A stretch of DNA of 64,000 bases from Campylobacterales bacterium (GTDB lineage: Bacteria; Campylobacterota; Campylobacteria; Campylobacterales; Sulfurimonadaceae), in the NCBI GenBank assembly GCA_014859655.1, contig JACUTT010000008.1, forward strand, positions 1 through 64,000, read 5' to 3'. Under the pieces are notes generated by a model. It was not told the origin of the DNA, ran no database searches, and saw only the letters and a list, made by a program, of their open reading frames with translations. Below, piece after piece: positions 13,873-19,398 of this stretch (position 1 is the first letter of the stretch; each line of letters begins with the position of its first letter). The position numbers were made by a program, and so were the translations under genes.

Positions 13873-15186
13873 ATGTTTTTCTGGTCTTCATTGTTCGGCA
13901 GTGACGCCGCGTCTGAGCATTTCCATTTCGGACGTTTCATCAGCTACAAAAAAAGCTCCTTGCAGCAGGCGCAGTATCAAGAGTCTAAAAAGGCCTTCTC
14001 TGAGCAGCGCTGCATCGAAGGGTATGAGCACTACTTCAACTACCTCTGTTTTTACGATGCCGCCCAGGAGTGCACAAACATCAGCTATAGCAAAGACGAA
14101 AACACCCTTAATTTCAAGCTGATACAAGGCTCAGCCATCATCCAGGGCAGCATCACCCAAAGACGCATGAGCGCGCATGTCAATATCGCGCTCATGCCCA
14201 AAGAGAACATCTCCGTTATGCGCCGTCTGCTGGAAAAAAACTTTCTCTACACCTACAGCAGTTTTTTTCTTGACGAGGATACGCTCAAGGTAAAGATCTG
14301 TTTTGACAACATCTCGCTCTCTCCGCAGAAGGTATTTTTTCCCCTGCGCGAGCTTGCCATCAATGCCGACAGAGAAAAAGAGCTTATTTTGGATGAGTTT
14401 AATGACCTCGAACCTCTTGAACTTGACCACATCGAGGTGATGGACACGCATCTCAAAGAGACAAAACTGCGCTTTTTCAGAGAGTGGATAGACAAGACCG
14501 AACAAAAAGTCCTGCTTCTGCCTACCCAGGAGCAGTCCGGGGCCATCGCCTTTGTCTGGATAAACCTGCTCTTTAAGATCGACTATTTTGTCACCCCGCG
14601 CGGCAAGCTGGGGTATGATATTTATGAGGCGCTTCAGGCCTATTATCTCGACGACGGCAAACACATCGAAGAAAAAAACGATGCCCTGCAAAAAGCCGTG
14701 GAAAAGCTTAAAGAACTCGATACAAGCCGGCTGTCAAAAAATCTCTACTGCGTCAAGGAGACCTTTGATATTTTCAACAGCGAGGGGCTCGAGGAGGTGC
14801 ATGCCTTTATCGAAGAAACCCTGGCAAAAGCCGTCTGGTACAAAGAACACCGCTACGAAGAGATCATTCTGCCCATCTATGAATATTTGGGGCAGTATAT
14901 GCTCTATAACTACGGCATGAACCCTTGTCTGCGCGAATTGGTCCAGCTCAATGTCAGGCTGCACAACACGGATTTCTACTCTGCTCTGGGCATAGAGAGT
15001 CTCTACAAAAATGACAAACTGCGCAGTAAAAAGATCTCCTCACTTATCCGCCAGAGCATTCATGCCTATAACGAGCAATACCCCTATCTTCACGACTTCT
15101 CGCCTGAACTCAACTTCTCCACAAACGAGAAGTTTCACCACTCCTTTTTTCTAGCCTTGAAAAACCTCAACTTTAGCGAGCTCTAA
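13873..15186 (+). CDS. Unknown protein paired with a trypsin-like protease
   Basis: 437 aa, no signal peptide and no membrane segment, so cytoplasmic. Residues 70-185 alternate strands and helices (for example MSAHVNIALMPKENISVMRR, then a strand pair around LKVKICFDNISL) in a pattern like the YbjN / type-III-chaperone-like fold. The C-terminal half (residues 220-437) is mostly helical and rich in aromatic and acidic residues, with no motif I recognise. The stop is one base before the start of the protease gene at 15188, so the two are translationally coupled and probably act together. A TACAAT at about 13833 may be the -10 element. Confidence 0.7.
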   Translation: MFFWSSLFGSDAASEHFHFGRFISYKKSSLQQAQYQESKKAFSEQRCIEGYEHYFNYLCFYDAAQECTNISYSKDENTLNFKLIQGSAIIQGSITQRRMSAHVNIALMPKENISVMRRLLEKNFLYTYSSFFLDEDTLKVKICFDNISLSPQKVFFPLRELAINADREKELILDEFNDLEPLELDHIEVMDTHLKETKLRFFREWIDKTEQKVLLLPTQEQSGAIAFVWINLLFKIDYFVTPRGKLGYDIYEALQAYYLDDGKHIEEKNDALQKAVEKLKELDTSRLSKNLYCVKETFDIFNSEGLEEVHAFIEETLAKAVWYKEHRYEEIILPIYEYLGQYMLYNYGMNPCLRELVQLNVRLHNTDFYSALGIESLYKNDKLRSKKISSLIRQSIHAYNEQYPYLHDFSPELNFSTNEKFHHSFFLALKNLNFSEL

Positions 15187-15187
15187 G

Positions 15188-16282
15188 ATGAATACCAAAA
15201 AGATACTCGACACCTACCAGGACAGCATTATTCAGATCGAAACGCCTCTGGCTTCGGGAAGCGGATTTTATCTTGAAAAACACCGGCTCATCGTCACCAA
15301 CTCTCATGTTGTCACGGGCCTTAAAGAGGTCGTTATCAGCTCCAAAAACATGAAACGGCGCCAGGCAAAGGTTGTTTACGATGACCCGAAATATGACCTT
15401 GCCTTTATCGTCACAAAGGATCTGACGGTCAAAACACCACTGAATCTGGCGAGCGAAAACGTGCATGACGGGGACAAGGCCATTGCGGTCGGCCACCCTT
15501 ACGGACTGAACTATTCGGCAACAGAGGGGATCGTCTCCAAGGCTGCACGTTTGCAGGGCGAACTTGAATATATACAGATCGATGCCGCAATCAATCCCGG
15601 AAACAGCGGAGGACCGCTGCTAAACGAAAACGGCGAGGTCATCGGAGTCAATGCATTCATCATCCAAAACTCTAACAACCTCGGCTTTGCCCTGCCATTT
15701 TCTTATGTCCAGGAGGCCCTGGATGCCTTTAAAAAGCTGGGAAAAAACGACATCATCCGCTGCTCCTCCTGCCTTAACCTTGTGCAGGAGAGGCTGATAA
15801 AAGATGACTACTGTCCGATATGCGGGGTAAAGATCGACATCGCAAAACAGCGCCGGGAGGGCTACAAAGCCGTCGGAACCATCAAAACACTCGAGAAGAT
15901 CCTTGAAGAGATGGGAAAAGATGTTGCGCTGGCAAGACGCGGACAGAGAGCCTGGCAGATCGACGTCGGAACGGCGCGTATTGAGATCTCCTATTATGAC
16001 AACGGCATTATTATTGCCGATGCCTCGCTCTGCCGGTTGCCGCATGAAAAGATCAAAGAGATCTACCGCTTTTTACTGAGTGAAAATGCCAAGATGGACT
16101 ATCTTCATTTCAGCATTGATGACAACTCCATCGTCCTCTCCTACATCGTCGTTGACAGCTCGCTTGAAGAAAAAAGCGGCAGTTTTGCACTGGGACGGCT
16201 CTTTTCTTTGGCTGACAGCTATGACGACATCCTGATAAACGACTACGGCGCGCTTGTGATCAAGAGGGATGACTCTGTTTAG
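15188..16282 (+). CDS. Trypsin-like serine protease with zinc ribbon and YbjN-like tail, probably cytoplasmic
   Basis: 364 aa. Residues 1-185 are an S1C (HtrA-like) protease with the triad His40 (IVTNSHVV), Asp70 (KYDLAFI) and Ser140 (PGNSGGPLL). No signal peptide, membrane helix or PDZ domain is present, which separates it from DegP/DegQ. A zinc ribbon follows (Cys192, Cys195, Cys209, Cys212: CSSC and CPIC). Residues 225-364 (for example ARIEISYYDNGIIIADASL) look like a YbjN / type-III-chaperone-like fold, similar to the partner protein. A processing role on a cytoplasmic partner, perhaps the upstream protein, is possible but unproven. The 3' end overlaps the convergent DUF502 gene by 23 bases. 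Confidence 0.85.
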   Translation: MNTKKILDTYQDSIIQIETPLASGSGFYLEKHRLIVTNSHVVTGLKEVVISSKNMKRRQAKVVYDDPKYDLAFIVTKDLTVKTPLNLASENVHDGDKAIAVGHPYGLNYSATEGIVSKAARLQGELEYIQIDAAINPGNSGGPLLNENGEVIGVNAFIIQNSNNLGFALPFSYVQEALDAFKKLGKNDIIRCSSCLNLVQERLIKDDYCPICGVKIDIAKQRREGYKAVGTIKTLEKILEEMGKDVALARRGQRAWQIDVGTARIEISYYDNGIIIADASLCRLPHEKIKEIYRFLLSENAKMDYLHFSIDDNSIVLSYIVVDSSLEEKSGSFALGRLFSLADSYDDILINDYGALVIKRDDSV

Positions 16283-16931: not shown

Positions 16932-17367
16932 ATGAGCGAATTTATACATATTGTCTGCCCCCACTGCAACGCGACCAACCGCATCCCCGCAGAACAAACC
17001 CCAAAAGAGGCCAAATGCGGACGCTGCAAGGGCTCTATCTTAGAGACCAAACCCATTGAACTCACTCCGGACAACCTTGAACAGCATCTGCAAAAAAAAC
17101 GATATTCCCCTCATCATCGACTTCTGGGCGCCCTGGTGCGGACCGTGCAAGATGATGGGGCCCAACTTCGAGAAGGCAGCGAAAAACTTCAGAGGCCGGG
17201 TGCGTTTCGCCAAGATCAACACCGAGGAACAGCAAAGTCTGGGTGCGAAGTTCTCCATCCGCTCTATCCCCACCCTCATTCTCTTCAAAGGCGCAAAAGA
17301 GGTCGACAGGCTCTCAGGTGCTCTTGATGCAGAGCAGCTTAGCCAGTGGATCCGCTCCAGGATTTAA
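16932..17367 (+). pseudogene. trxC: Thioredoxin 2 (TrxC) split by a one-base shift in an A8 run
   Basis: The first frame encodes the zinc-binding head of TrxC (CPHCNATNRIP, then KCGRCKG). The active site WAPWCGPC and the rest of the thioredoxin fold (IRSIPTLILFKGAKEV, cis-Pro) are in the other frame. The switch falls at the eight adenines of 17092-17099: with seven, the protein reads LQKNDIPLIIDFWAPWC without a break and is 144 aa, close to E. coli TrxC (139). It should be a cytoplasmic disulfide reductase. The shift may be a real mutation, transcriptional slippage on the A-run, or a sequencing error. Everything else, including the promoter and ribosome site, is intact. Confidence 0.88.
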
Positions 17368-17448: not shown

Positions 17449-19398
17449 ATGTTTTTAGAATTTAACGTCAATCTGGACAGCGCCATTGATGAACTCACTG
17501 CTCTTTTAGAAAACAACAAAACACAGATAGAGCAGCTCTTAAAAATAGAAAACAAAAGCTATGAAAATTTCGTCAAACCCTTCGAGATGATAGACGAGCG
17601 CCTCAACTGGTTTTTTACCCCCATATCGCACCTCAACTCGGTCAACAACTCCGAGCAGACCCAAAAAGTCTACAGCGATGCCCTGCCCATTTTGACCGAC
17701 TACGGCACAGAGATCTCGCAAAATGAAGAGATCTACAAGGCCTTCAAGGTCATCAAAGAAAAAGAGGGCCCTGCCTTGAACCAGGAGCAAAACCAGGTGC
17801 TTGAGCACAATATCCGCGATTTTGAGCTCAGCGGTGCGCATCTGGAACAGGATAAAAAAGACCGCCTCAAAGCAATCAACCTCAAAAAAAGCACCCTGAC
17901 CAACGACTTCTCGCAAAACCTTCTAAATGCGACCAATGCCTACACTCTGCTCATTACAGAGGAGAAAGATATCGAAGGCATCGCTGAGTCTGACCTTGAG
18001 AGCGCCAGGCAGGAGGACGGCAGCTACAAGTTTACCCTGCAGATGCCCTCTTACATTGCCTACATGACCTACGGGAAAAACCGCACTTTGCGTGAGGAGC
18101 TCTACAAGGCCTACACGACCCGCGCGAGTGAAAATGCTGCCATCATCGATGAGCTGATGCAGCTTCGTCAGGAGATGGCGCAGCTGCTGGGCTTTAATAA
18201 CTACGCCGAACTCTCCATCGCGCCGAAGATGGCCACCTCCACACAGAAGGTCGTCGACTTTCTAGAAGAGCTGGCCTCTGCCTCCAAAAAACAGGCGCAA
18301 AAAGAGCTTGACGAACTCGAAAAACTGGCAAGATCCCGGGGAGAGGAGAATATCCAGAGTTTTGACACCGCCTTCTATAGCGAGATACTCAAAAAAGAGA
18401 AGTATGACATCGACGAAGAGCTCTACCGTCCCTATTTTGAGAAGAACTCTGTAGTTCAGGGGCTTTTTGAGTTCCTACACCGTCTCTTTGCCATCGAGTT
18501 CAAAGCCGTAGAGACAAGACTCTGGGATGACAAAGCAAATGCCTATGACCTCTACGTCAACGGCGCTCTGCGCTCACGCCTCTACCTCGACCTTGAGGCG
18601 CGCTCCTCTAAGCGCGGCGGTGCGTGGATGAACAACTGGCAGAGCCACTGCGAAGACGAGAGCGGAAATCCCCTGCTCTCTTCCGCCTTTGTCGTCTGCA
18701 ACTTTCCGCCCTCCTCTGCCGCCTCGCCTTCGCTGCTTCGCCATGACGATGTCGTCACCCTCTTTCACGAGATGGGCCACGCCCTTCACCACATGCTCAG
18801 CAATGTCAAAGAGAGCTCCGTCAGCGGTGTGGGCGGCGTAGAGTGGGACGCGGTCGAGTTCCCCTCGCAGTTTTTGGAGAACTTCGCCTATGAGCCCAAG
18901 GTCCTGAAACTCTTTGCCAAGCACTACAAGAGCGCCGAGGTGCTCAGCGACGACCTGATCGACAAACTTGATCGTGCGCGCAACTTCCAGTCGGCCATGC
19001 AGATGCTCCGTCAGATCGAGTTCTCCCTTTTTGATTTCAGACTGCACATGAGACTGCATACGGGCGAGCAGATTCAGACTCTTCTTGATGAGATCAGAGA
19101 GAAGTTCAGCCTTCTCAAGCCCCCTTCTTACAACAAGTTCCAAAACGGTTTCGCCCACATCTTTGCAGGCGGTTATGCGGCAGGCTACTACTCCTACAAA
19201 TGGGCAGAGGTGCTCTCAGCCGACGCTTTTTTCCATTTTGTCGACAACGGCATCTTCAACGAAGAGGTCTCCTCGGCCTATCGCGACATCGTCCTTTCGC
19301 GCGGCGGAAGCGAGAGCATGGGCGTTTTGTTTGAGAGGTTTATGGGAAGAGAGCTTGACACCACCGGCCTGCTGAGGCTTAACGGCATCACCGAATGA
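17449..19398 (+). CDS. prlC: M3-family oligopeptidase (oligopeptidase A type)
   Basis: 649 aa, near the 680 aa of E. coli PrlC/OpdA. The thimet-oligopeptidase zinc motif FHEMGHALHH is at about residue 440, followed by the downstream glutamate region (VSGVGGVEWDAVEFPSQFLE). The C-terminal GYAAGYYSYKWAEVLSADAF is the M3A substrate-binding signature. It is a cytoplasmic enzyme that finishes off peptides and cleaved signal peptides. A good AAGGA site precedes the ATG and a TACAAT lies near 17416. Its stop overlaps the next gene (ATGA). Confidence 0.94.
   Translation: MFLEFNVNLDSAIDELTALLENNKTQIEQLLKIENKSYENFVKPFEMIDERLNWFFTPISHLNSVNNSEQTQKVYSDALPILTDYGTEISQNEEIYKAFKVIKEKEGPALNQEQNQVLEHNIRDFELSGAHLEQDKKDRLKAINLKKSTLTNDFSQNLLNATNAYTLLITEEKDIEGIAESDLESARQEDGSYKFTLQMPSYIAYMTYGKNRTLREELYKAYTTRASENAAIIDELMQLRQEMAQLLGFNNYAELSIAPKMATSTQKVVDFLEELASASKKQAQKELDELEKLARSRGEENIQSFDTAFYSEILKKEKYDIDEELYRPYFEKNSVVQGLFEFLHRLFAIEFKAVETRLWDDKANAYDLYVNGALRSRLYLDLEARSSKRGGAWMNNWQSHCEDESGNPLLSSAFVVCNFPPSSAASPSLLRHDDVVTLFHEMGHALHHMLSNVKESSVSGVGGVEWDAVEFPSQFLENFAYEPKVLKLFAKHYKSAEVLSDDLIDKLDRARNFQSAMQMLRQIEFSLFDFRLHMRLHTGEQIQTLLDEIREKFSLLKPPSYNKFQNGFAHIFAGGYAAGYYSYKWAEVLSADAFFHFVDNGIFNEEVSSAYRDIVLSRGGSESMGVLFERFMGRELDTTGLLRLNGITE

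Follow-up and report, generated by a model that had tools for sequence, protein, structure and literature searches.

The locus under study lies in a window of 64,000 nucleotides, the whole stretch of DNA that was analysed. It comprises two genes, here named A and B, followed at a short distance by the gene for oligopeptidase A:

13873..15186, + strand: gene A, a partner protein of 437 aa (open reading frame, orthologues, AlphaFold model and Foldseek)
15188..16282, + strand: gene B, a serine protease of 364 aa (open reading frame, Trypsin_2, NCBIfam, AlphaFold and Foldseek)
17449..19398, + strand: opdA, oligopeptidase A (M3 peptidase), the usual downstream neighbour (best match NCBIfam PRK10911)

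A single base separated the stop of A from the start of B in the open reading frames of the window, whereas in relatives the gap ranged from -98 (a matter of start-codon choice) to +11 bases. Both genes were under purifying selection (dN/dS 0.12 for A and 0.08 for B). A promoter and terminator scan of the locus gave nothing clearly over expectation, and no terminator was found between A and B. The stop end of a convergent DUF502 gene on the opposite strand (E 1.5e-18) overlapped the last bases of B (window 16260-16282), an overlap also present in the relative L021. A TrxC-like thioredoxin gene whose product has a ribbon at its N-terminus (window 16932-17367) was split over two frames, which reflects either a frameshift or an assembly error; its counterpart in the relative L040 (11060-11494) was a single intact frame.

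Protein B matched the Pfam family Trypsin_2 (PF13365) with an E-value of 3.5e-29. Its protease domain was nearest to the Do family of NCBIfam (degP_htrA_DO), whose cut-off it did not reach (162.5 vs. 416.2 bits). Solved relatives recovered by sequence were HhoA (the best, E 3.6e-28), DegP, HtrA1 and HtrA2, and a Foldseek search with the AlphaFold model (mean pLDDT 88.9, trypsin domain at residues 1-185) returned HtrA1 (3.9e-16), DegQ and DegS. The catalytic residues were located as follows:

15305..15307, + strand: codon of the catalytic His40, invariant in 75 orthologues, B' and the Bacteroidota B
15395..15397, + strand: codon of the catalytic Asp70, invariant in the same set
15605..15607, + strand: codon of the catalytic Ser140, within NPGNSGGP, invariant in the same set

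The GNSGG motif and the triad were thus unchanged in the 75 orthologues and in the diverged relatives, the latter being covered by a second alignment that included three diverged proteins (B') and a relative from Bacteroidota, with identities of 26-41%. By sequence, B belongs to the S1C-type trypsin folds and its triad is intact, and it would be expected to act as a protease. Just 39 residues precede His40, a hydrophobic N-terminus is absent, and in relatives the alignment of B has the same starting point. Neither a signal peptide nor a membrane anchor was found in B, the search for a transmembrane segment was negative (best 19-residue Kyte-Doolittle mean 1.0), and a PDZ family sought with Pfam gave no match. 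Residue 15 of B aligned to residue 40 of the HtrA2 chain, so that B begins around 25 residues later than the solved HtrA2 chains, and because of this later start the N-terminal trimerisation segment of HtrA proteins seems to be absent. The same genome also encodes a Do-type protease (L175 699-2117) that is longer than B and, unlike B, begins with a hydrophobic leader.

The region of B behind the trypsin domain contained two further elements:

15761..15823, + strand: four-cysteine ribbon of B, C192-x2-C195 ... C209-x2-C212 (invariant cysteines, weak zinc-ribbon Pfam matches)
15863..16255, + strand: residues 226-356 of B, a TY-chaperone-like tail in the PDZ position (secondary-structure order of the model; sub-threshold YbjN, CesT_Tir and TY-Chap1 matches)

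The ribbon occupied residues 189-215 of the model. Its four cysteines (C192, C195, C209 and C212) formed two CxxC-type knuckles that were invariant in the 75 orthologues, in B' and in the Bacteroidota relative, in keeping with a putative zinc ribbon. Taken together, the absent signal, the absent PDZ domain and the four conserved cysteines support a location inside the cell, and B is apparently cytoplasmic. Weak ribbon-only matches (E near 1e-4) were also obtained in frames of 630-660 aa from several families of the order (G200, G151, G110 and others). In these frames, of about 640 aa, the matches were confined to the start of the model (about its first 32 to 57 positions), and they probably correspond to an unrelated zinc-ribbon protein.

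In the model of the B tail, a helix (230-241) was followed by three main strands, a helix (289-300), two strands and a last helix (328-353); the first strands are preceded, at 246-252, by a short helix and strand. The same order of secondary-structure elements has been described for BacA and for type III secretion (T3S) chaperones (PMC10948618). The gathering score of the TY-chaperone Pfam families was not reached by sequence; the tail of the window B scored 15.4 bits against YbjN, for which the cut-off is 22, and the best E-value among members was 1.8e-4. The model suggests that the tail is a TY (YbjN/type-III-secretion chaperone-like) domain replacing PDZ, an assignment of element order only, the whole-chain Foldseek list of B being filled by HtrA proteins. 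A sequence-only reading of the window had described a protease with an intact His40/Asp70/Ser140 triad and a four-cysteine ribbon, without signal peptide or PDZ domain, probably cytoplasmic and ending in a region like YbjN and type-III chaperones. The alignments and searches bore out this description, and for the C-terminal region the agreement lies in the AlphaFold element order, with the sequence below the Pfam cut-offs.

Protein A was divided by its model into three parts:

13873..13914, + strand: residues 1-14 of A, a short aromatic N-terminal peptide of the M-x-W-[LF]-x-x-[FL] type (78 orthologue N-termini; pLDDT < 50)
13942..14418, + strand: residues 24-182 of A, a TY-chaperone-like (YbjN/CesT) domain (element order; Foldseek)
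14440..15183, + strand: residues 190-437 of A, an all-helical half (no family, PDB sequence or PDB fold match)

No significant family was found for A in Pfam, NCBIfam or PADLOC. The AlphaFold model was confident (mean pLDDT 89.7, pTM 0.87), and the window A displayed neither a signal peptide nor a transmembrane segment (best 19-residue Kyte-Doolittle mean 1.4). The N-terminal aromatic motif (e.g. MSWLNFF) recurred in orthologues and was predicted to be disordered. In Foldseek, the TY region of A matched 2plg, 5z38, 8q8o (BacA) and 6vu7 with a probability of 1.00, and CesT, ExsC and YbjN were matched as well, with modest E-values of 1.7e-4 and up. In the model, residues 29-175 presented the element order of the B tail with a helix and a strand added, and residues 192-430 were helical. 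Searches of Pfam, PDB sequences, PDB folds and a viral fold library gave no relatives of the helical half; a Herpes_UL69 match (E 0.015) was taken as chance. Pfam, PDB and Foldseek searches revealed no effector domain in A, whether of a nuclease, a pore-forming protein or another kind, and a gasdermin-like partner was discarded, no such fold appearing in the Foldseek lists shown for A (PDB and viral library). Confident models with TY-like folds were thus obtained for both proteins. They agree with the earlier description of A as a partner sharing a region with the protease tail, for which Foldseek finds YbjN, CesT and BacA, and carrying a helical half that was unrecognised then and has no match now in Pfam, PDB or the viral fold library.

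The two TY domains resembled each other at a low level. A profile of the A domain matched B with a best score of 17.7 bits, all the top matches falling within B residues 242-326, whereas reversed sequences scored 2.6 or less, and a search with A matched the B tail of genome G028 (E 1.4e-5). Comparison of the two domains with hhalign gave a probability of 49.5% with one alignment set and 17.1% with another. This weak but consistent similarity makes a common ancestry of the A and B TY domains likely, not proven. Covariation between the two proteins was analysed in 74 pairs with an effective number of sequences (Neff) of around 43; TY-TY pairs were as frequent as expected (16 observed vs. 15.7 expected), a result that is uninformative and neither supports nor excludes a TY-TY contact.

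Among 60 relatives, A and a full-length B orthologue were found in an identical set of 18 genomes. B lay on the same strand as A in all 80 A loci fetched and was its direct neighbour in 79 of them, and in 16 further genomes found through the B tail, A was also present at the expected direct-neighbour position. Two cassette-free sites were recovered, one with pyrH directly beside opdA (L167) and the other with a PP2C-kinase gene beside opdA (L169); at matching sites, carriers hold A-B in between. Pairwise distances of A and B were correlated (0.92), and a partial correlation of 0.68-0.73 was left once a control gene of these loci had been accounted for. B was strongly conserved and A evolved about twice as fast (mean distance 0.44 vs. 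0.84). A and B are inherited as one cassette, and the proposal that genes one base apart form a coupled unit has gained, besides confirmed reading frames, a paired inheritance far beyond chance.

Two loci departed from this arrangement. In the only interrupted pair of the 80 loci (L046 9312-13005, also L028 8932-12625), around 3.7 kb separated A and B, and the insert carried opposite-strand genes, one of them coding for a GGDEF-type sensor. In Sulfurimonas sp. MAG313 (L044 8001-9325, on the same contig as L025), A was read in two frames next to an intact B; here B may be kept without a full-length A, or the assembly may be in error.

Within Campylobacterota, carriers were mainly Sulfurimonas, Sulfuricurvum and relatives, together with a genome of another family (G038). 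Most carriers belonged to one family, the pair spanned at least three families of one order, and the distribution was patchy within one genus. Three congeneric genomes of the third family (L140, L141 and L161) carried a diverged pair, A' and B'. B' was recognised with E-values of 4e-61 in L140 and 3.3e-56 in L141, and through its tail in L161 (E 1.3e-36). A' adjoins B' and was missed by genome searches with the A profile, while profile comparison with hhalign showed it to be homologous to A (97.6%, E 4.3e-12). A transmembrane-like hydrophobic helix was present at the C-terminus of A' in all three genomes, no TY family was detected in A' with Pfam, and the pair sat in a gene context different from that of the main-family cassette. 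A further relative of B was found in Bernardetia sp. Wsw4-3y2 (NZ_CP147018.1; Bacteroidota; L162 8443-9522), on a replicon of 602 kb, where it was flanked by unrelated genes and no A was found on the replicon. The window B was closer to this protein (41% identical over the full length) than to B' of the sister family (26-31%), which suggests horizontal transfer of B; as the Bernardetia B has no neighbouring A, A is not universally required. Co-occurrence of the two genes outside close relatives was thus upheld in part: the pair occurs in at least three families of the order, and outside the phylum B was found by itself.

The opdA product of the window scored 623 bits against PRK10911, below the cut-off of 927. 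A gene of the opdA family lay five genes away or less in 61 of 78 loci, at a median of 17 bases after B, and opdA followed by an endonuclease/exonuclease-type gene and a uracil-DNA-glycosylase-like gene were the most frequent neighbours. The other flank was a pyrH-rpoZ-relA/spoT-tyrS block in about one third of the 78 loci, so that in many carriers the cassette lies between housekeeping genes (pyrH, oligopeptidase A). A gene for a fused PP2C phosphatase-Ser/Thr kinase preceded A directly in around 19 of the 78 loci (L041 6312-7958 and relatives), and it is apparently part of a nitrate-assimilation gene group. As candidates for a third member of the unit, an upstream DUF4136-type lipoprotein gene, the PP2C-kinase gene and the nitrate genes were rejected, being lineage-specific and not constant. 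The core gene opdA and its neighbour aside, the 78 loci offered no conserved third gene as a dedicated target, and among their recurrent neighbours, judged by the families seen, there was no T3S system (T3SS) or T3SS effector gene. Since opdA belongs to the core genes and also occurs in genomes that lack the cassette, a functional link is suggestive only and the position may be incidental.

HtrA-type proteases act outside the cytoplasm in most bacteria and read peptides through their PDZ domains, and protein degradation in the bacterial cytoplasm is thought to be mainly the work of ATP-dependent machines. With moderate confidence, we favour for the cassette a cytoplasmic, membrane-proximal HtrA-like protease, B, that has a TY domain for PDZ and works with a TY-bearing adaptor, A. 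B would cleave independently of ATP, its PDZ reader being replaced by the zinc ribbon and the TY domain, and A, with its own TY domain and the helical half, would serve as its adaptor through a TY-mediated contact. The C-terminal transmembrane helix of A' would place A near the inner membrane face, where the aromatic N-terminal peptide of A could perhaps, as a guess, contribute. The TY domains would catch extended or unfolded segments of clients, as T3S chaperones do, and offer them to the active site of B; the resulting peptides could pass to oligopeptidase A. T3S chaperones are described to wrap unfolded client chains around their dimer (AmyR paper, PMC5398634), and a role as peptide-binding chaperones has been proposed for the TY domains of other bacterial systems (PMC9503650).

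The strongest rival, which we consider somewhat unlikely, makes A mainly a regulator (chaperone or inhibitor) that would bind the tail of B through its TY domain and maintain the protease in a folded or inactive state, the choice of clients being left to B alone. The strong conservation of B against an A that changes about twice as fast, their joint gain and loss and the B relative without a neighbouring A would suit this role; on the other hand, the size and conservation of the helical half of A, like the transmembrane helix found in A', suggest that A does more than inhibit, and the contact between A and B is as much a supposition here as in the adaptor model. Sequence alone does not separate the regulator from the adaptor.

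We judge it unlikely that A is an inactive proenzyme or effector that B, as its dedicated protease, cleaves upon a stress or phage signal. Bacterial gasdermin operons are, besides the pairs cited below, a further example of an effector with a dedicated protease. In favour of this analogy are the position of the partner gene directly ahead of a gene for a trypsin-like protease, the correlated trees and the PADLOC matches between B and the protease domains found in defence proteins, and in nuclease-protease (HamM/Avs) antiviral pairs the partner gene is likewise followed by a trypsin-like protease gene and co-inherited (PMC12799240). However, A lacks an effector domain, be it nuclease, pore-forming or other, and outside residues 1-14 it is predicted to be well ordered, without an obvious gating loop; B has no fused sensor. 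An origin in defence or mobile elements was also rejected, A being absent from the viral contigs, phages and plasmids where it was sought; the B tail was likewise not found in viral contigs, phages or plasmids, one Bacteroidota replicon aside. The role in a conflict system put forward in the sequence-only reading finds no support, given the housekeeping surroundings in many carriers, the lack of viral or phage relatives, PADLOC matches that concern mainly the protease domain and the lack of an effector domain.

Single targets are known for HtrA-fold proteases (DegS), and A and B could form a regulatory protease that processes one specific cytoplasmic protein at a defined site, as opposed to quality control. 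The patchy distribution within one genus suggests a dispensable, specialised role of this kind, but besides the core opdA and its neighbour no constant third gene offers itself as the dedicated target, and we regard this option as quite improbable. That A and B are unrelated ordinary neighbours, adjacent by shared inheritance alone, gains something from one family holding most carriers and is very improbable in view of the genomes that have or lack both genes, the sites without both, the partial correlation and the persistence of the pair in another gene context of another family, where A is barely recognisable.

The architecture is real and uncommon, and it is experimentally approachable. If the adaptor-assisted protease is confirmed, it would give a widespread group of sulfur-oxidising bacteria an ATP-independent route of cytoplasmic proteolysis, and evolution would have exchanged one substrate-reading module directly for another, PDZ for a chaperone type. 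The YbjN/CesT fold would moreover gain a defined enzymatic partner, which bears on stand-alone YbjN-type proteins. A possible, still doubtful, extension is that a class of HtrA-like proteases, cytoplasmic and membrane-associated, begins with this cassette; client recognition would have passed from PDZ to a TY module split between protease and adaptor, which makes up a heteromeric client-binding unit, and the adaptor would bring a new helical fold.

Among known systems, a true T3SS chaperone would be encoded beside a T3SS or its effector, a setting not seen here among the recurrent neighbours. The link to the oligopeptidase A (M3) pathway consists of a gene directly downstream of the cassette in most carriers, yet one that also belongs to the core of genomes without it. 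HamM-type nuclease-protease pairs share with A and B the gene order (partner, then trypsin-like protease) and the co-inheritance, but here the partner is no MBL nuclease, no defence enzyme is fused to the protease and the locus is not mobile or defence-like. In the models, the B tail and the N-terminal half of A follow the fold order of the YbjN, class I T3S chaperone and TY-Chap group (CesT, AmyR, BacA, TY-Chap1); the solved members of this superfamily are small and stand-alone, whereas in the cassette the domain is joined with either a protease or a helical half and scores below the Pfam cut-offs. With the HtrA/Deg proteases (MEROPS S1C; DegP, DegQ, DegS, HtrA1, HhoA), B has in common the trypsin fold, the triad and GNSGGP; it scores far under the NCBIfam family cut-offs and differs from them in having neither PDZ domain, signal nor anchor and apparently no long N-terminal segment, and in carrying instead a ribbon and a TY tail.
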